From Desulfonatronovibrio magnus (GTDB lineage Bacteria > Desulfobacterota > Desulfovibrionia > Desulfovibrionales > Desulfonatronovibrionaceae): a stretch of DNA of 64,000 nt. The stretch spans positions 1 through 64,000 of the forward strand of contig NZ_KN882176.1 of the NCBI RefSeq assembly GCF_000934755.1, given 5' to 3'. A program made the position numbers and the translations under genes. Below, in pieces: positions 39,658 through 58,030 of this stretch. The notes under the pieces were generated by a model. The model did no database searches. It worked only from the letters and a program-made list of their open reading frames with translations, and was not told the DNA's origin. Every line of letters begins with the position of its first letter. Within the stretch, counting starts at the first letter, position 1.

Positions 39658-39888
39658 ATGAACACTCATACTAGTACCCCCTTTCAACGGGCCATTGAGG
39701 CTGTGGAAGCCTTGCCCTTGAATGAAAGGGAAGACCTTTTGGCAACATTGAGACTGCGCACTATTGAAGAAAGAAGGGAGCAGATAGCAGCCAACGCACG
39801 CGAAGCCCTCCAAGCGGTCCGGCAAAAACGAGCTAGCTTTGGAAGTCTGGAGGATCTGAAAAAGGATCTTTTGTCCAATGAATTATAA
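39658..39888 (+). CDS. Antitoxin of a RelE/YafQ-type module
   Basis: 76 residues from the ATG at 39658, chosen for the AAAGGAG six bases upstream; an in-frame start at 39631 lacks one. The sequence is helical and charged (ALPLNEREDLLATL, EERREQIAANAREALQAVRQKR, SLEDLKKDLLSNEL), as in small addiction-module components. The C-terminal ~30 residues would wrap the toxin. It overlaps the toxin gene by 11 bases, the classical arrangement in which antitoxin comes first. Role by size and context; DNA-binding class not identified. Confidence 0.8.
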   Translation: MNTHTSTPFQRAIEAVEALPLNEREDLLATLRLRTIEERREQIAANAREALQAVRQKRASFGSLEDLKKDLLSNEL

Positions 39889-40165
39889 GCTTGCCTGGAC
39901 TCAAGGTTTCAAAAGAGGCTTCAAAAAGGCAACCAGAAACAACGAGCCCTTACAGGAAAAGATTTTTTCCGTATTGGATAATCTATGCAATAATCCTTTT
40001 GATGCAAAACTGAAGACGCATAAACTGCATGGAAAATTGATGGGGCTTTGGGCCTGTCATGTAGAGTATGACTGCCGGATTGTTTTTGCGTTTGAAAAAG
40101 ATCCTGATTTAGGAAATGACCTGATCGTATTGATTGACATCGGAAAGCATGATGAGGTTTATTAG
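39878..40165 (+). CDS. RelE/YafQ-type mRNA interferase toxin
   Basis: 95 residues. It follows the RelE fold order (LAWTQGFKRGFKKATRN, LDNLCNNPFDAKLKTHKLHGKLMGLWACHV, YDCRIVFAFEKD, LIDIGKHDEVY). The conserved KLHGKL...W...V...YRI-like path and the C-terminal GKHDEVY match the YafQ/YoeB-like group that cleaves mRNA in the ribosomal A site, with late His/Tyr residues taking part. Complete and uninterrupted, so probably active. Confidence 0.88.
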   Translation: MNYKLAWTQGFKRGFKKATRNNEPLQEKIFSVLDNLCNNPFDAKLKTHKLHGKLMGLWACHVEYDCRIVFAFEKDPDLGNDLIVLIDIGKHDEVY

Positions 40166-40230
40166 GTTTAACAGACTGTTAAGGGGCCGGCGTTAAGGAC
40201 CAAGGTTCCTCAGCGGCCCAGATCACGCCC

Positions 40231-40294
40231 TGAATGAAGATTATTCAGCATAATGATATTAGATAGTTACAGAGGAATGTTGGGGTCAGACCCC
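40231..40294 (+). repeat. Cassette-boundary repeat 2 (partial)
   Basis: ATAATGATATTAGATAGTTACAGAGGAATG then GGGGTCAGACCCC (40282-40294), here followed by AAAGTC rather than CATG. The 5' part is less conserved than in other copies. Confidence 0.65.
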
Positions 40295-40306
40295 AAAGTC
40301 AAATCT

Positions 40307-40379
40307 AAGAGTTCTGGACGCAGATCTCGCCCCAGTGAAATGAGAAGAGATTTCACGGGGTAAACAGATCTTCGCAGAT
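40307..40379. repeat. Second copy of the 73-bp repeat
   Basis: Matches 37178-37250 closely. It directly follows boundary repeat 2. The remaining bases up to 40485 contain AGCGTGAATCAGCGCAATCAGCG, an imperfect short tandem. Confidence 0.7.
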
Positions 40380-40485
40380 AGGAAGAGATAAAACCTCTTA
40401 TCAGCGTGAATCAGCGCAATCAGCGTCAAAAAAGTCTTTGCCGACAACAAAAATTTCGACCGGTTCAAGTTAGAACAGGATATAT

Positions 40486-40872
40486 ATGGATAAACATATC
40501 AAATATTGGATCGATTCAGCAGATCATGATCTGGATGTAGCCGCATCTCTTTTTGCTAATGCCAAGTATGACTGGTGTTTATTCATTGCCCATCTGGTAT
40601 TGGAAAAGACCATGAAAGCTCTTTACGTAAAGTACAAAAATGATTTTCCTCCGCGCACCCATGATTTATTAAGATTAGGCGAAATGATCGGCCTTGGTTT
40701 GGATGATGAGACCATGGGATTTCTCGATTCAGTGAATACTTTTAATATATCAACCAGATATCCTGATGAGAAGTTAAGATTTTACAATCTTTGCACCAGA
40801 GAATTTGCGGCTGAAAACTTTATCCGGATCAAGGAGATAAGGAAATGGCTTCTGCAAAAGATATATCAGTGA
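40486..40872 (+). CDS. HEPN domain protein (HepT-like toxin of a HEPN/MNT pair)
   Basis: 128 residues, all helical. YWIDSADHDLDVAASLFANAKYDWCLFIAHLVLEKTMKAL is the classical start of HEPN proteins (PF05168), followed by THDLLRLGEMIGL and ISTRYPDEKLRFYN. HEPN/MNT pairs act as toxin-antitoxin systems in which the HEPN partner is an RNase and MNT adds AMP to it. The canonical RxxxxH motif of the RNase is not evident here, so toxicity is inferred from the pairing. It overlaps the MNT gene by 28 bases. Confidence 0.82.
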   Translation: MDKHIKYWIDSADHDLDVAASLFANAKYDWCLFIAHLVLEKTMKALYVKYKNDFPPRTHDLLRLGEMIGLGLDDETMGFLDSVNTFNISTRYPDEKLRFYNLCTREFAAENFIRIKEIRKWLLQKIYQ

Positions 40873-41168
40873 AAAAGGCCCGCTTGTTTCTTGACTCACT
40901 GCGCGAGGCAGGAATTGACGTTTCTGAAGCATATCTATTCGGCTCGGTTGTCGCCGGGGTATCCCATAAGGATAGCGACATCGACCTGGCTGTGGTATCA
41001 AGTAAGTTTCAGGGGATTAGGTATCATGACATGAAAAAGATAAGCAGACACCGAAGAAAAATTGATCTGCGCCTCGAGATCCATCCTTTTTCCAGCCAGG
41101 AGGTCGAACAGGACCCACCTCAGTTTTATTTAAAAATTAAACAGGAAGGCCTGAGAATTCTTCCATGA
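40845..41168 (+). CDS. MNT-type nucleotidyltransferase antitoxin (MntA-like)
   Basis: 107 residues. AYLFGSVVAGVSHKDSDIDLAVV contains the GSx10DxD motif of minimal nucleotidyltransferases with both metal-binding aspartates; the third acidic residue is likely the Asp of KIDLRLEIH. In characterised pairs MntA AMPylates HepT to neutralise it. The start is the ATG at 40845, inside the HEPN gene, with AAGGAGATAAGGAA upstream. Confidence 0.87.
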   Translation: MASAKDISVKKARLFLDSLREAGIDVSEAYLFGSVVAGVSHKDSDIDLAVVSSKFQGIRYHDMKKISRHRRKIDLRLEIHPFSSQEVEQDPPQFYLKIKQEGLRILP

Positions 41169-41194
41169 TTTTCAAATAAATCAGGGTGAACAGA

Positions 41195-41295
41195 ATACCT
41201 TCAATGAAAAATGCGGCTTATCGATAATGATATCAAGTGATTACAGAAATAGTTAGGAAACAGTTTGGTTAACAGTTTGGGGTCAGACCCCCATG
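41195..41295 (+). repeat. Cassette-boundary repeat 3
   Basis: ATACCTTCAATGAAAAATGCGG, TATCGATAATGATATCAAG, GATTACAGAAATAG, a partly duplicated AACAGTTTGG, and GGGGTCAGACCCC (41279-41291), then CATG. It lies 55 bases before hicB. Confidence 0.75.
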
Positions 41296-41349
41296 GCTTA
41301 TCCATCGGCGGCATCAGATGGCTTAAATCCCCACAGAAAGGAGAATATT

Positions 41350-41559
41350 ATGAAGTTTCGAGTTTTACTCCAGCCAGACACTGAAGATGGTGGCTTCAAT
41401 ATCAGTTGCCCTGCATTGCCAGGATGTCATTCTCAGGGAGAAACAGTGGAGGAGGCTCTTGCCAATATTCGTGAGGCCATTGAACTCAGTCTTGACGTAC
41501 TCAATAGCCGCGCCAAAGCTCAGAATCCCAGGGAGCAGATTATGGAAGTAGCTCTCTAA
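41350..41559 (+). CDS. hicB: HicB-like antitoxin
   Basis: 69 residues from the ATG at 41350 with AAAGGAG upstream; the longer frame from 41293 begins inside the boundary repeat. The fold signature FRVLLQPDTEDGGFNISCPALPGCHSQGETVEEALANIREAIELSLD is the partial RNase H-like domain of HicB. There is no C-terminal DNA-binding domain, so it is the short form. One base separates it from hicA. In this locus the antitoxin comes first, the reverse of the E. coli order. Confidence 0.9.
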   Translation: MKFRVLLQPDTEDGGFNISCPALPGCHSQGETVEEALANIREAIELSLDVLNSRAKAQNPREQIMEVAL

Positions 41560-41560
41560 A

Positions 41561-41788
41561 ATGACACGGTTAGGCGGTTACTCCGGTACAGGAGTTGTCC
41601 GGGCTTTCCAAAGCGCTGGCTGGAAGGTGGTTCGGAAAAAAGGAAGTCATGTCTGCATGGAAAAGCCAGGACACGAGTCTATCCTTACAATTCCTGTGCA
41701 TAAAGGAAAGGACGTCAAGAAAGGGACACTGCGCAACCTTATCAAAGATGCTGAAATGACAGTAGATGAATTTCTCAAATGTATTTGA
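41561..41788 (+). CDS. hicA: HicA-like mRNA interferase toxin
   Basis: 75 residues of dsRNA-binding-like fold: GTGVVRAFQSAGWKVVRKKGSHVCMEKPG, then TIPVHKGKDVKKGTLRNLIKDAEMTVDEFL. The His in GSHV is the catalytic residue of HicA toxins. Length and motifs are complete. Pairs with the HicB gene directly upstream. Confidence 0.92.
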   Translation: MTRLGGYSGTGVVRAFQSAGWKVVRKKGSHVCMEKPGHESILTIPVHKGKDVKKGTLRNLIKDAEMTVDEFLKCI

Positions 41789-41955
41789 AAAAGTTTGGAT
41801 TCAAACTCCCATGCGTATACAGGGGGGCCATTGACACCGAGAGATGTTGCAAGTTAATACTCATTTATTGACACTGGCTGGTCTCAGAGGCCTAGCCAAC
41901 TATCAGAGACCTGGCCCAGCAGACCCCAAAGTCAAAATGACAAAAGGAGTGCATA

Positions 41956-42012
41956 ATGGAAGCAAGAGCCGTTAAAATTGGAAGCAATCTGGGAAATAGT
42001 TCGGAGAAATAG
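41956..42012 (+). pseudogene. N-terminal remnant of an AbrB/MazE-type antitoxin
   Basis: An ATG with AAAGGAG upstream opens MEARAVKIGSNLG, the usual first residues of AbrB/MazE swapped-hairpin antitoxins (VKIGNSxG). The frame then runs into the boundary repeat and stops at 42012 after 18 residues. The rest of the gene is gone. It may belong with the MazF fragment at 43452, which lacks its N-terminus. Confidence 0.6.
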
Positions 42013-42032
42013 TTCGGGGTCAGACCCCCATG
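41992..42032 (+). repeat. Cassette-boundary repeat 4 (3' part only)
   Basis: GGAAATAGTTC occurs twice in imperfect form before GGGGTCAGACCCC (42016-42028) and CATG. It replaces the body of the MazE-like gene. Upstream, about 41875-41925, GGTCTCAGAGG and CAGAGACCTGG recall GGTCTCAGAGACC at 43696. Confidence 0.65.
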
Positions 42033-42104
42033 GCGACACAGGCCACAGTCAGAAAGACTCAGCTTCAGGCATCATCTTTACATCACCATGCAAGTGGAGG
42101 AATT

Positions 42105-42293
42105 ATGCAAGAAACTATGGATATTGATCAGGAATTATTGAAAAAGGCTGCACAGATCCTGGGTGAAAAGGAAAAGTCGCGCTTGATCCAGATGGCGTTA
42201 GAGGCATTGATTGAAAGAGAAAATGCCCGAAACTTGGCACGGCTTGGTGGTAGCCAACCTGAATTGCGGCATGTACCGCGTCGCAGACTTTAA
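42105..42293 (+). CDS. vapB: VapB-type antitoxin
   Basis: 62 residues from the ATG at 42105 (GGAGG upstream); the in-frame ATG at 42030 lies in the boundary repeat. IDQELLKKAAQILGEKEKSRLIQMALEALIERENARNLARLGGSQP has the ribbon-helix-helix pattern and R-L-G-G tail of the VapB family PF09957, which usually partners a PIN toxin. The toxin starts 15 bases after the stop. Confidence 0.87.
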   Translation: MQETMDIDQELLKKAAQILGEKEKSRLIQMALEALIERENARNLARLGGSQPELRHVPRRRL

Positions 42294-42307
42294 AAGGCAG
42301 CGTAGGG

Positions 42308-42685
42308 ATGTATCTTGTTGACACATCTGTTTGGATTGATCATTTTAACAAAAGTGAACCGCTTTTGGTATCCTTTCTGAATGATAATGTAGTTTGTACC
42401 CATCCGTTTATTATCGGAGAAATTGCACTTGGCAATTTACGTCAACGTGAAATTGTAATTGGATATTTTCAGGGACTTCCTCAAGCATGTGTGGGTTCTG
42501 ATTTTGAAGTTATGCATTTCATCAGCAAAAAAATGTTGCATGGAAAAGGCATTGGTTATGTAGATGCACATCTTGTGACAAGCGCCTTACTGATGAACAA
42601 CATATATATTTGGACTCGTGACAAAAAACTGCTGAAAGCAGCTAAACAATTAAACATGGCATATATAGAGGACGATTCAAACTGA
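42308..42685 (+). CDS. vapC: VapC-type PIN-domain ribonuclease toxin
   Basis: 125 residues. All four acidic residues of the PIN active site are visible: Asp in YLVDTSVWIDHF, Glu in IIGEIALG, Asp in GIGYVDAHLV and Asp in WTRDKKLLKAA. VapC toxins cut specific tRNAs or rRNA. Complete frame, so probably functional. Confidence 0.92.
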   Translation: MYLVDTSVWIDHFNKSEPLLVSFLNDNVVCTHPFIIGEIALGNLRQREIVIGYFQGLPQACVGSDFEVMHFISKKMLHGKGIGYVDAHLVTSALLMNNIYIWTRDKKLLKAAKQLNMAYIEDDSN

Positions 42686-44274: not shown

Positions 44275-44373
44275 ATGTTAAACAATTCTCTCAATCACAG
44301 TTTCACCAATTTTTATTTTTGGTATTTTTATTTTATCAGGACCTGTGGTCTGGAGGGAAAGGTTTACTCTTAA
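44275..44373 (+). CDS. Aromatic leader peptide of the aro-phe-tyr-trp operon (32 residues)
   Basis: ATG at 44275, TAA at 44371. Residues 13-20 (codons 44311-44334) read FYFWYFYF, eight aromatic residues in a row covering Phe, Tyr and Trp, the three end products of the operon; Phe10 and Tyr31 add more. No Shine-Dalgarno sequence is visible, which fits a start at or near the 5' end of the transcript. The reading frame is followed by an antiterminator arm and an intrinsic terminator, as for trpL/pheL leaders. T-rich DNA encodes Phe and Tyr easily, so the run alone would be weak; the structures around it make the case. Confidence 0.8.
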   Translation: MLNNSLNHSFTNFYFWYFYFIRTCGLEGKVYS

Positions 44374-44412
44374 AACAACTGGTTTAAACTCAACAATCCA
44401 AAGGGCCGCAGG
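44342..44412 (+). promoter_or_regulatory. Candidate antiterminator pairing of the aromatic operon attenuator
   Basis: CCTGTGGTCT (44342-44351), eight bases after the aromatic codons, can pair with GGGCCGCAGG (44403-44412) in ten consecutive pairs, three of them G-U. The second segment contains the 5' arm of the terminator, so the two structures exclude each other. The first segment can also close a local hairpin (GGACC with GGTCT, 44339-44351). A ribosome stalled in 44311-44334 would prevent or bypass the local hairpin and allow the antiterminator. Confidence 0.7.
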
Positions 44413-44435
44413 CAAAAGCCGGCGGCCCTTTTTTT
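44403..44435 (+). terminator. Intrinsic terminator (attenuator) before the first aro gene
   Basis: GGGCCGC (44403-44409) pairs with GCGGCCC (44422-44428). Inside, GGC-AAAA-GCC extends the stem past one A-G mismatch, and seven T residues follow. It lies 29 bases after the leader-peptide stop and 60 before the first gene's ATG, so it must be read through for the operon to be expressed. Confidence 0.9.
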
Positions 44436-44495
44436 GTACCATTTAAACGGGCTGCCACTCGAGCCTGGGCCTCCAAAACAACGGAGGGAACAAAA

Positions 44496-48980: not shown

Positions 48981-49754
48981 ATGAATGATTCTCAAATAGC
49001 CATTATTGGCGGGCACGGTCAGATGGGGCGGATGTTAGACAAAAGATTTTCTGATGTCGGCTTGAAAGTTCTTTGTCTGGATCAGCCCCTGCCTGAAGAT
49101 GAGCTCGAAGCTCTTCTGTCTCCTTGCAGGCTGGTTATTCTGGCCGTGCCCATTTCTGTCTTTGCCCAGGTTACTGAATTGATTGCACCCAGAATGGCCC
49201 AGGGAACGATTTTAACTGATATTTGCTCAGTCAAGGTAACCCCGCTCATGCATATGGAAAGGCTTTATACAGGCCCTGTGGTGGGGACTCATCCCTTGTT
49301 TGGTCCTGACCCAAAACCCGATCATGAGCTTAAGGTTGCCCTGTGCCCTGGTACTGGCACAGATCAAAATAGCGTGGAATTGGTTGAAAAAATATTCAAC
49401 AAGGCCGGGATGCGAACGTTTATCTGTTCGGCCAGGGAGCATGATCAGGCCATGGCCTGCATCCAGAGTCTTAATTTTGTTACAACAATATCATATTTTG
49501 CCAGCTTGCCCCAGGATCTTGATCTGGAAAAGTTTTCCACACCGTCATTTATGCGCAGGCTTAACTCAGCCCGGAAGATGCTCAATGAAGACGCTTATCT
49601 TTTTTCATCTCTTGCTGAAGACAATCCTTATACTGGACAAATGATTCGCAGGTTCAAATCTTTTCTTAACTTAAGTGCAGCAGGTGAGCTGGAACTTCTG
49701 CAGGACAAGGCCCTCTGGTGGTGGCGTAATGAAAATGAAAAAGGGGGGCCATAA
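48981..49754 (+). CDS. tyrA: Prephenate dehydrogenase, with a Trp-Trp-Trp tail
   Basis: 257 residues. The NAD-binding loop IAIIGGHGQMGRMLDKRF, VILAVPISVF and GTHPLFGPDPKPD (prephenate-binding His region) identify it; QSLNFVTTISYF lies in the helical dimer domain. It oxidises prephenate to hydroxyphenylpyruvate for tyrosine. The tail is KALWWWRNENEKGGP. These three Trp are the only ones in the protein, and they lie 66 bases before a terminator preceding trpE. The tail therefore probably doubles as a Trp-sensing leader; see the attenuator entry. Confidence 0.93.
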   Translation: MNDSQIAIIGGHGQMGRMLDKRFSDVGLKVLCLDQPLPEDELEALLSPCRLVILAVPISVFAQVTELIAPRMAQGTILTDICSVKVTPLMHMERLYTGPVVGTHPLFGPDPKPDHELKVALCPGTGTDQNSVELVEKIFNKAGMRTFICSAREHDQAMACIQSLNFVTTISYFASLPQDLDLEKFSTPSFMRRLNSARKMLNEDAYLFSSLAEDNPYTGQMIRRFKSFLNLSAAGELELLQDKALWWWRNENEKGGP

Positions 49755-49829
49755 TGTCTTTTATACATGCGTTTAGTGTAACTAAAAAAGCCGCGTTCAG
49801 CCCCCCCAGGGCAGGACGCGGCTTTTTTT
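49743..49829 (+). terminator. Internal attenuator between tyrA and trpE
   Basis: The terminator stem pairs 49790-49803 with 49809-49822, fourteen positions with one A-A mismatch and one G-U, loop CCCCA, then seven T (49823-49829). An alternative pairing GGGGGGC (49743-49749, last codons of tyrA) with GCCCCCC (49800-49806) overlaps the inner stem and loop and would block it. A ribosome held on the Trp codons 49716-49724 leaves the G-run free; one that reaches the TAA at 49752 covers it. This is the logic of a trp attenuator. Confidence 0.75.
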
Positions 49830-49872
49830 GTTTTTACCGATTCAGGTTGAATGATAAATAAAGGAGTGAAAC

Positions 49873-51282
49873 ATGATCAAACTTAAGCAAAAGGCAACCT
49901 GCCTGCCGGCAGATACCCAGACTCCGGTATCTTTGTATCTTGGCTTTGTGGGCAGGGAAAAGGGAATTCTACTGGAAAGCTCGGAAGTAGACGGCAGGCT
50001 GGGACGATACAGCCTGCTTGCCTGGGATTTCAGGCTGCAGCTTGGGAGCAGGGAAGGCAAGCTCACTGTAAAGTGTCTCGATAATCGCTTGGATTCCATC
50101 AAAGATTTTGAAGGGCTGGATTTTACCGAGGGTGTGCGCAAAGTGCTGGAAGAAATTGAAATCGAGGCTGACAGTGAGTTTGACCTGCCGCCCATGACCA
50201 GGGCTGTTTATGGTTATTTTGGATATGGAATGAGCGGACTTTTGGAACCAAAGCTGGCTCAGGCCCTGCCTGCCGAGCAGACTGAAGCCCAGCTTGTACT
50301 TCCCGGAAGGATGCTTCTTTTCGACCATCTGCACTATCATTGTTATTACTTATGTCTTGATAATGATCTATCCCTGCCCAAACCCAAGCCATCAAGAGCC
50401 AAGTCCCAATTTAAAGTGGGCAAAATCACCACTTATCCTGACCAGGAAAAATATCACGACTGGGTAATCAAAACCAAAGAGCTTATCAGGCAGGGAGAAG
50501 CCATTCAGGTGGTGTTGTCCACCAGGTTTGAAGCACCGTTTAAAGGAGATCCGTTTCTTGTATACCGTCATTTGCGCAGAATAAATCCCTCCCCATATAC
50601 CTTTTTTCTCAATTTGGACGGGGTTTCTTTGATGGGGTCTTCTCCTGAGCTTATGGTTAAATGCGGGAAAAATGTTCTGCAGTTGAGACCCATTGCAGGC
50701 ACCAGGCCCAGGGGTGAGACAGAGAAAGAGGACCAGGCCCTGGCTGATGAACTATTGCAGGATGAAAAGGAACGGGCCGAGCATGTCATGCTTGTGGATC
50801 TGGGGCGTAACGACCTGGGCCGTATTGCTCAAGCCGGCAGTGTTGAAGTAGATAAGTTCATGCAGGTGGAGCGCTTTTCCCATGTCATGCACCTGACCTC
50901 GTATCTTTCTGCTCTTTTGAAAAAAGATATGGATGTGGTGGACATATTAAAGGCATCCTTTCCAGCTGGTACAGTTTCAGGCGCGCCCAAAATAAGGGCT
51001 ATGGAGATCATTTCTGAAATGGAGGAGCTGCCTCGCGGCCCTTACGCCGGAGCCATTGGCTGGATTGGACTGGATCAGGGCAAGGTGAATATGGATACAG
51101 GTATAACTATCAGAAGTCTTTGGATCAGGGACGGCAAGATTCACTGGCAGGCCGGAGCTGGTGTTGTTTACGATTCAGTCCCTGAAAAAGAATGGCAGGA
51201 ATGCGCCAACAAGGCCAAAGCCATTCTCAAAGCCCTAAGCTACACAGGAGGAACAGATGATTTTGCTCATAGACAACTTTGA
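49873..51282 (+). CDS. trpE: Anthranilate synthase component I
   Basis: 469 residues. LLESSEVDGRLGRYSLL near residue 35 has the Trp-binding LLESS feedback motif. The catalytic half shows RQGEAIQVVLSTRF, NLDGVSLMGSSPELMV, PIAGTRPRGETEKED and LVDLGRNDLGR, FPAGTVSGAPKIRAMEII. It converts chorismate and ammonia or glutamine to anthranilate with TrpG, whose gene overlaps its end by 26 bases. GGAG lies upstream of the ATG, after the internal attenuator. Confidence 0.96.
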   Translation: MIKLKQKATCLPADTQTPVSLYLGFVGREKGILLESSEVDGRLGRYSLLAWDFRLQLGSREGKLTVKCLDNRLDSIKDFEGLDFTEGVRKVLEEIEIEADSEFDLPPMTRAVYGYFGYGMSGLLEPKLAQALPAEQTEAQLVLPGRMLLFDHLHYHCYYLCLDNDLSLPKPKPSRAKSQFKVGKITTYPDQEKYHDWVIKTKELIRQGEAIQVVLSTRFEAPFKGDPFLVYRHLRRINPSPYTFFLNLDGVSLMGSSPELMVKCGKNVLQLRPIAGTRPRGETEKEDQALADELLQDEKERAEHVMLVDLGRNDLGRIAQAGSVEVDKFMQVERFSHVMHLTSYLSALLKKDMDVVDILKASFPAGTVSGAPKIRAMEIISEMEELPRGPYAGAIGWIGLDQGKVNMDTGITIRSLWIRDGKIHWQAGAGVVYDSVPEKEWQECANKAKAILKALSYTGGTDDFAHRQL

Positions 51283-55791: not shown

Positions 55792-56556
55792 ATGAGTAAT
55801 ATCCTGACAGACAGAATAAAGACTGCCCTTTCAGACGGGCGAAAGGCTTTGATCCCTTTTGTGCCTGCAGGTTTTCCAGATAAGGCTCAGTTCTGGGACA
55901 TCATTATGGAACTTGATGACTCAGGCGCGGATATTATTGAAATTGGTGTCCCTTTTTCCGATCCAGTGGCTGATGGCCCTGTGGTGGAAAAGGCATCCAT
56001 CAGATGCCTCGATCAGGGGGTCAATCTGCATTGGATTATGCAGGGGCTTGCAAAGTACAGAAAAAACATAAGTGCTGGAATTGTACTCATGGGCTACTTT
56101 AATCCGTTTTTACAGTATGGGCTTGACAGCCTGGCCAGCAAGGCAGCAGAGGTGGGAGTTAATGGAATTATTATTCCTGATCTCATCTTAGAGGAAGCAT
56201 TGCCTCACTTGGATCAGCTTCAACCCTCAGGATTGTCCTTTATACCTCTCGTGGGACTCAACACTCCACAAGAGCGAATGAATAAGTATTCACAAACAAA
56301 ACCGGCTTTTGTGTATCTGGTTTCTGTTCTGGGTATAACCGGAACAAAAGCAAGCGCAACTCAGTTGCTGCGCGATAAACTAAAACAGGTAAAAGAAAGC
56401 TTTGCATGTCCTGCTGCGCTGGGATTTGGCCTAAGCTCCAAAGAACAGTTAGAACCCATTGCGGATCTGGTGGAAGCGGTAGTGTTTGGCAGCGCTCTGA
56501 TCAAGCATCTTGACCAGGGCAAAACAGCGAGAGATTTTATGCGGGCCTGGGCTTAA
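55792..56556 (+). CDS. trpA: Tryptophan synthase alpha chain
   Basis: 254 residues. IEIGVPFSDPVADGPVVEKAS contains the catalytic Glu and Asp; GIVLMGYFNPFLQYG, GVNGIIIPDLILEEA and GFGLSSKEQL with VFGSALI follow. It splits indole-3-glycerol phosphate and passes indole to TrpB. AAGGAAT lies just upstream. Last gene of the operon. Confidence 0.96.
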   Translation: MSNILTDRIKTALSDGRKALIPFVPAGFPDKAQFWDIIMELDDSGADIIEIGVPFSDPVADGPVVEKASIRCLDQGVNLHWIMQGLAKYRKNISAGIVLMGYFNPFLQYGLDSLASKAAEVGVNGIIIPDLILEEALPHLDQLQPSGLSFIPLVGLNTPQERMNKYSQTKPAFVYLVSVLGITGTKASATQLLRDKLKQVKESFACPAALGFGLSSKEQLEPIADLVEAVVFGSALIKHLDQGKTARDFMRAWA

Positions 56557-56620: not shown

Positions 56621-58030
56621 TTAGGCTGCGGTTGATCTTCTTTGCATGCGCTGATTATCGCTTGGGGTCAGGCTGCAGGTTTCATCGCTGTCGGACAGCA
56701 GTTTTTCAATGCCCACGCACTGTTCCACCCCGTCATCCTCCTTAAGCTGGAGATTGCATGCCTTGCAGTCACGGTCGCAGAATTTTGCTTCATAGCTTTC
56801 AGGTTCGGAGTAGGTGGTGATCACTCCTTCAAAGTTGCGCAGAATTACCTTGTTGGCCCCCCAGGAAACAATATAGTTGGGCATGATGGGTATTTTTCCT
56901 CCTCCGCCGGGAGAGTCAATGACATAAGTTGGCACTGAAAAGCCGCTGGTGTGTCCCCTGAGACTTTCTATGATTTCAATGCCTTTGCCCACTGGCGTGC
57001 GAAAGTGAGTCAGGCCTTCGGACAGATCGCACTGATAAATATAATATGGGCGAACCCGGTTTTTAATGAGTTTCTGATTAAGGGTTTTGATCAGGCGCTG
57101 GCAATCATTGATGCCTGCCAGAAGTACTGTCTGGTTACCGAGAGGAATGCCTGCATCCGCAAGCATGGTCAAGGCGGCCTTGGATGTGCTGGTTACTTCT
57201 CTTGGATGATTGAAGTGCGTGTTGAGCCAGAGAGGGTGATGTTTTTTCAGGATTTGCACCAGATCGCTGGTAATCCGGTAAGGAAGGACTACCGGCATTC
57301 TGGATCCGATTCTTACAACATCCACATGATCAATCATGTTGATTTCTCCAAGAATCCAGTCCAGACGTTCATCGGAAAGCATTAAGGGATCACCCCCGGA
57401 TAAGAGCACGTCTTTTATCTGAGGTGTATTTTTAATGTATTCAATGCCTTTTAAAAGGTCTTTTTTTCCAGGCATGGTTTCCGCGTCGCCCACCTTTCGT
57501 TTTCTTGTACAGTGGCGGCAGTACATGGAGCATATATTGCTGATATGAAAGAGCACCCGGTCAGGATAGCGGTGAGTTATGCCTGGAGTGGGGCTGTCCT
57601 CTTCCTCATGCAATGGATCGCTCATATCGGATCTTTCTATGATCAATTCCTTAGACGAAGGAAAGGACTGACGGAATATGGGATCATTGGCATAATCATC
57701 TGTTTCAATAAGAGATAGATAATAAGGAGTTACAGACATTGGGAATTTTTCCGCAGTCTGCCTGAATGCTTTTCTTTCCCGTTGTGGAAATTTAATATTA
57801 AGAAGGTTCTCAAACTGATCAATATTGCGTACTGAATTCTGGATATGCCATTTCCAGTCGGTCCACCTTGATTGCCAGTCCTTTGCGGCAGGCAGATTAT
57901 TCTGACTGACCGTATTTACAGCACATTGAACAGATTGTGCAGAGTGTAGCACCTGGCTATTTTTCGGCGCATCAATGTTGCTGGTCATTCTTCTGGCAAT
58001 TTTACTGTCCTTTTCGTTCAACTGATACAT
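56621..58030 (-). CDS. kamA: Lysine 2,3-aminomutase
   Basis: 469 residues. Radical-SAM cluster motif [86 protein letters not shown] with the PLP-binding Lys. The two Asp that bind the lysine side amine in the clostridial enzyme are kept (YQCDLS, VIDSPG), so lysine rather than glutamate is the probable substrate. It makes beta-lysine, which in many anaerobes is acetylated by AblB to an osmolyte. No ablB lies beside it. An N-terminal ~60-residue extension is present. Confidence 0.9.

Follow-up and report, generated by a model that had tools for sequence, protein, structure and literature searches.

Can the last codons of an enzyme gene serve as the leader peptide of an attenuator for the genes behind it? 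The question is raised by the tyrA-trpE junction in the window (the whole 64,000-nucleotide stretch of Desulfonatronovibrio magnus DNA analysed here), where an original prediction had proposed that the 3' end of tyrA acts as a Trp leader peptide. One long aromatic operon runs through this region, comprising the genes for ADH synthase (from 44496) and DHQ synthase II, followed by pheA, aroA, tyrA, trpE, trpG, D, C, F, B and A, and ending at 56556. When a profile of TyrA relatives was compared with solved prephenate dehydrogenases, the best match was 2pv7 (E 1.2e-34), and the AF2 model of TyrA reached a mean pLDDT of 91.6. The protein ends in ...WWWRNENEKGGP and, as had been claimed, its only Trp residues are three consecutive ones (246-248 of 257); counted from the C-terminus they are residues 10-12, and not 12-14 as originally stated. 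The features of the junction are as follows.

48981 to 49754, + strand: tyrA, prephenate dehydrogenase of 257 aa (ORF call), the 3' end of which is the putative leader ORF.
49716 to 49724, + strand: three consecutive Trp codons, the putative control codons.
49743 to 49749, + strand: GGGGGGC, the 5' arm of the antiterminator, within the last tyrA codons; it starts at the 19th nucleotide past the last Trp codon (a gap of 18 nt).
49752 to 49754, + strand: tyrA stop codon; by footprint calculation a ribosome here would cover the arm.
49784 to 49828, + strand: intrinsic terminator in the tyrA-trpE spacer, with arms at 49784-49798 and 49814-49828 and a loop at 49799-49813; a second T-run comes after it.
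49800 to 49806, + strand: GCCCCCC, the partner of the arm, in the terminator loop.
49743 to 49806, + strand: antiterminator fold, GGGGGGC with GCCCCCC plus AAUGUCUUUU with AAAAAG..CGUU.
49873 to 51282, + strand: trpE, the first gene proposed to be regulated (Shine-Dalgarno AAAGGAG at 49860-49866); trpG, D, C, F, B and A follow to 56556.

The terminator consists of a 15-bp stem followed by T-runs, and its region without the arm (49757-49829) folds at -33.1 kcal/mol (z -5.8 vs shuffles); our general terminator scan missed it because its loop exceeds the length that the scan allows. The original claim that the pairing of GGGGGGC with GCCCCCC excludes this terminator held only in part, since the pairing is present but its 7 bp alone meet nothing other than the loop. 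The full alternative fold, which involves the RNA from the G-run to the C-run before the 3' arm of the terminator is made, adds to the 7-bp core two further 5-bp helices that use the 5' stem of the terminator (-21.2 kcal/mol for 49743-49807, z -2.7). Because this fold also takes the 5' stem arm, the terminator would be excluded; we infer, from sequence alone, that exclusion in the window depends on the extra helices. No Rfam covariance model matched the window at gathering score. A search of the genome itself with a fixed DNA pattern of the element returned no match, and the pattern failed even on the known site, because the sequences of the arm and its partner vary.

We postulate that the tyrA end and the tyrA-trpE spacer together very probably constitute a ribosome-mediated Trp transcription attenuator that uses a structural gene as leader peptide, with the stalling, the read-through and the dependence on Trp being inferred. 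In this model, when Trp-tRNA charging is low, the ribosome behind RNA polymerase would stall on the UGG run of tyrA with its leading edge just short of the downstream arm; the free arm would pair with the emerging 5' part of the terminator, no terminator would form, and polymerase would proceed into trpE-A. With ample Trp, the ribosome would reach the tyrA stop codon and cover the arm, so that the terminator would form and trpE-A would remain untranscribed, with upstream aro, pheA and tyrA still being transcribed. The model hence retains, as an inference, the earlier suggestion that Trp shuts off trpE-A without shutting off Phe and Tyr synthesis. It also implies that Trp starvation would slow the completion of TyrA itself.

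To survey the arrangement, we looked for TyrA in close relatives, in 348 genomes of the class (all of which were placed in the same order) and in 395 genomes across the phylum; 80 named loci were fetched, the nearest being from Desulfonatronovibrio MAGs, and the final tyrA set comprised 158 non-redundant Desulfovibrionales loci (individual loci are denoted by L numbers). In 88 of the 158, trpE lies downstream with the same layout; 86 of these have a detectable terminator and an upstream arm, and the other two (L099 and L160) have the arm and a hairpin with a weak T-run. All but one of the 88 attenuator loci (87/88) carry at least three consecutive Trp residues. Thus, the proposed check on TyrA C-termini and spacers in relatives was passed, Trp codons, arm and terminator occurring together in 88 loci. 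The core pairing and the terminator 5' stem share bases in 80 of 86 loci, with median energies of -28.0 kcal/mol for the antiterminator vs -23.1 kcal/mol for the terminator. The outgroup TyrA proteins examined end before the position of the Trp run or lack such a run, and have no trpE nearby. In L160, the arm and hairpin are intact, the T-run is weak and trpE lies ~870 nt away; this could be a decaying attenuator.

The arm and the terminator also co-vary. Across genera, the pairing is kept with differing letters: GGGAGGA with TCCTCCC (L005), ACGGGGAGGATA with TATCCTCCCCGT (L004), GAGAAGTGC with GCACTTCTC (L060, Halodesulfovibrio), AGAGGAGTGC with GCGCTCCTCT (L036), GGGACGCGGC with GCCGCGTCCC (L028 and others, Humidesulfovibrio type) and GGGTGCGGC with GCCGCACCC (L123, Pseudodesulfovibrio). 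Over 86 loci, the median core helix score was 23.4 for arms with their own terminators, 16.8 with swapped terminators, 14.8 for shuffled arms and 16.6 for a reversed terminator. Among 42 disjoint pairs of nearest relatives, the own pairing was better in 27 and the crossed pairing in 2, with 13 ties (p 1.6e-6). The pairing between the upstream arm and the terminator therefore exceeds chance over the 86 loci. As a separate matter, a Shine-Dalgarno role of the G-rich arm was considered and rejected, because some arms (e.g., GGGACGCGGC and GGAGAAGTGC) do not resemble a Shine-Dalgarno sequence, yet are complementary to their own terminators.

If a stalled ribosome sets the arm free, it matters where the arm sits. 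Measured from the last Trp codon, the start of the core pairing lies at 17.8 nt (sd 3.4), whereas measured from the tyrA stop it is far more variable (sd 8.4 nt), because the stop may sit anywhere 6-36 nt past the last Trp codon. Both spreads are inflated by a few core assignments (e.g., L048 and L026) in which a helix other than the functional one was probably scored. The Humidesulfovibrio loci, like several more, have their arm at or beyond the stop codon, yet its distance from the Trp codons remains 12-23 nt; in several lineages the whole arm is downstream of the tyrA stop. On this spread of positions, a fixed register of the arm to the stop codon was rejected. We then modelled the ribosome with a footprint of ~30 nt, reaching 12 nt ahead of the A-site codon, a size assumed from general knowledge. 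When the A site is occupied by the last Trp codon, the arm is free in 86/86 loci, and with the ribosome at the stop codon a mean of 96% of the arm is covered. The claim that a paused ribosome leaves the pairing open and one at the stop codon covers it was thereby upheld, as far as footprint geometry with an assumed size can do so, and the model predicts an attenuator-type geometry that depends on the position of the Trp codons and not on the gene end. We also observed that TyrA of L046 is shorter than that of its relatives (...GWWWRSS, TGA), with the arm (GGGAAG, W+18) and the terminator still complementary past the stop.

These positions bear on a different explanation, namely TnaC-like sensing by the nascent peptide, in which tunnel-bound Trp and the WWW peptide would arrest the ribosome at the tyrA stop, where it would cover the arm. 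This rival also predicts termination at high Trp and agrees with WWW lying near the C-terminus. However, tunnel arrest needs a fixed register, whereas the distance from WWW to the stop ranges over 6-36 nt with unconserved intervening sequence, and it is to the Trp codons that the arm register is held. We consider TnaC-like sensing all but ruled out.

Under the attenuator model, a further matter is what happens when tyrA is not translated. We found no conserved 1:2 hairpin that could sequester the arm while no ribosome is present; pairing of the arm with the upstream 40 nt had a median of -7.5 kcal/mol vs -7.7 kcal/mol when shuffled (86 loci). An untranslated tyrA message should therefore read through by default, unlike the E. 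coli trp message, and we infer from the sequences that read-through is probably the default without translation.

Additional evidence comes from loci where the two genes have parted. Twelve genomes have trpE somewhere other than downstream of tyrA. There, trpE is preceded by a short ORF of its own with 2-3 consecutive Trp codons (e.g., MNVFSNTISNSFKGWWWRIQLRGGDVRA in L232), plus a terminator, and the arm stands at +14 to +18 nt; most of these genomes represent one clade, and L229 and L230 look independent. Such modules argue against a second rival, according to which general translation coupling at the tyrA end, as in rph-pyrE, acts without the Trp codons being the signal. In favour of that rival, an arm and a terminator alone already confer dependence on ribosome position, and WWW also persists without a downstream trpE. 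It does not account for the near-constant distance from the Trp codons to the arm, for the at least three Trp residues in 87 of the 88 arm-bearing loci, or for relocated modules that are short ORFs with Trp codons; hence, we judge it very improbable.

The persistence of WWW needs closer consideration, since its occurrence in TyrA proteins whose genes are not next to trpE had been named beforehand as refuting the leader interpretation. That condition is met in one large clade (Desulfovibrio sensu stricto and kin; 37 sequences, close to one evolutionary event), and the relocated trpE genes in those of its members that we examined are preceded by a WWW leader of their own. In addition, W247 is invariant in every TyrA of the aligned sample, and the last predicted helix of TyrA starts with W246-W248 (AF2; mean pLDDT of the block 84, dropping to 56 in the tail beyond). 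As WWW is kept without trpE and starts the last helix, the Trp run is partly a protein feature; given the conservation of W247 and the separate WWW leader of the relocated trpE, we take the met condition to show a second, protein-level role for part of WWW and not a refutation. Where trpE follows tyrA by a few bases without a terminator (Solidesulfovibrio type), or the terminator has been lost (Fundidesulfovibrio type), TyrA has only WW in 15/22 loci, compared with 1/88 attenuator loci, the first Trp being usually gone. In three genomes without a trpE match, TyrA ends in LWW, LWW and RWF, i.e., the full WWW is lost. In a tree-aware test of attenuator presence against WWW, the trend had the direction expected of the attenuator model (about 2.3 of 6 pairs went the same way and essentially none the opposite way), but the independent events are too few to give the test power.

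A third rival holds that the terminator is an ordinary operon terminator, that trpE-A has its own promoter and that WWW is only a feature of the TyrA protein. It is favoured by the retention of WWW in the clade without a downstream trpE, by the Trp run starting the last predicted helix and by tyrA-trpE spacers of 200-870 nt in some genomes, which leave room for a promoter. Against it, in the window the + strand of the terminator-trpE interval contained no sigma-70-like site, and the rival leaves unexplained the arm-terminator co-variation, the spacing from the Trp codons to the arm independent of the stop, and the module before relocated trpE. We regard an own promoter as a very unlikely explanation. 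The attenuator remains our preferred reading: the sequences show how it is built, that its parts co-vary, how they are spaced and that it recurs as a stand-alone leader, and the original interpretation of the tyrA 3' end as a Trp leader is supported by the co-occurrence, the co-variation, the Trp-to-arm spacing, the footprints and the relocated modules, with the response to Trp itself inferred.

Upstream of trpE in L231-L238 and L240 are stand-alone trp leaders (such as WWWRIQLRGGDVRA) whose sequences are similar to those of TyrA tails in the neighbouring clade (WWWRENNDTGGVRH, WWWRSHTERGGVRPS). Judged from this resemblance only, common descent of the leaders and the tails is likely. In a bolder reading, which in our opinion could as easily prove wrong as right, the enzyme gene is the attenuator leader in most of the order, and leader peptide and enzyme tail interconvert. 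Within this reading there are two alternatives: the trp leader of Desulfovibrio sensu stricto (GWWWRIQLRGGDVRA) may derive from the tyrA 3' end once trp had moved away, or an ancestral trp leader ORF may have fused in frame to tyrA, giving the C-terminal extension. Either way, the locus may allow a possible conversion between leader peptide and protein tail to be traced.

How does the proposed element relate to known systems? With the E. coli trpL attenuator it shares Trp codons, an arm (segment 2) exposed by ribosome position, and an exclusive antiterminator and terminator before trpE. It differs in that the last codons of a 257-codon enzyme gene inside the operon make up its leader, and in that neither a segment 1 hiding the arm nor an Rfam match was found. 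It has most of what defines a ribosome-mediated attenuator: control codons in a translated ORF, a terminator before trpE, an exclusive antiterminator (in the window, with the extended fold only) and an arm that is free or covered, the last on geometry only; a response of read-through to Trp supply is inferred. It does not meet the trpL-type requirement of a dedicated short leader ORF without other function, the ORF being tyrA, which encodes a full enzyme. In E. coli rph-pyrE, whether a terminator ahead of the downstream gene acts depends on translation at the end of the preceding structural gene, and UTP is sensed through transcription-translation coupling; the tyrA-trpE element differs from it in having amino-acid control codons and an antiterminator arm.

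The supraoperon also has an attenuator at its front, with the following features.

44275 to 44373, + strand: leader peptide MLNNSLNHSFTNFYFWYFYFIRTCGLEGKVYS (containing FYFWYFYF); in nearly all relatives that were examined, an aromatic-rich leader plus terminator precedes the ADH synthase gene.
44402 to 44437, + strand: terminator ahead of the ADH synthase gene, whose 5' arm pairs with CCUGUGGUCU of the leader (-17.8 kcal/mol).

Given its Phe, Tyr and Trp codons, we infer that this first attenuator (44275-44437) is a general aromatic one, ahead of the operon. Its counterpart in D. vulgaris is the putative attenuator that Song et al. (2005; PMC1173090, Table 7) list for the aroA' supraoperon, the same supraoperon, where it precedes the first gene; between tyrA and the trp operon their table shows none. 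No earlier description of a tyrA-trpE attenuator was found in the literature searched, most subscription journals being outside the search. What would be new is the enzyme gene as leader, ribosome-mediated trp attenuation, by which this element most likely works, being known.

RNA-seq data from Desulfovibrio hydrothermalis show that trpE, G and D are lower at 10 than at 0.1 MPa, with no gene from the aldolase to tyrA listed, and that at 26 vs 0.1 MPa the aldolase gene through trpF are all listed as lower (PMC4162548). Apparently, the operon halves can be uncoupled, and a second point of control located between tyrA and trpE would fit the data; these are subject to significance cut-offs, concern pressure and not Trp, and the presence of the element in that species is assumed.

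If the model is correct, amino-acid attenuation need not use a dedicated leader peptide, as the C-terminal codons of an enzyme can be the sensor; elsewhere the task of sensing Trp is done by a separate tiny leader-peptide gene, a role that the tyrA end appears to take in the sulfate-reducing Desulfovibrionales. One operon could then be regulated in two steps, for all aromatics at its front and for Trp alone in its middle. Since searches for short leader ORFs miss such attenuators, others may hide at gene ends elsewhere. Beside the operon we noted by eye, at 39878-42685, a toxin-antitoxin-like cluster (a RelE/YafQ-like protein, a HEPN plus nucleotidyltransferase pair and a PIN-domain protein) and, at 56621-58030 on the - strand and convergent with trpA, a lysine 2,3-aminomutase-like radical SAM protein.
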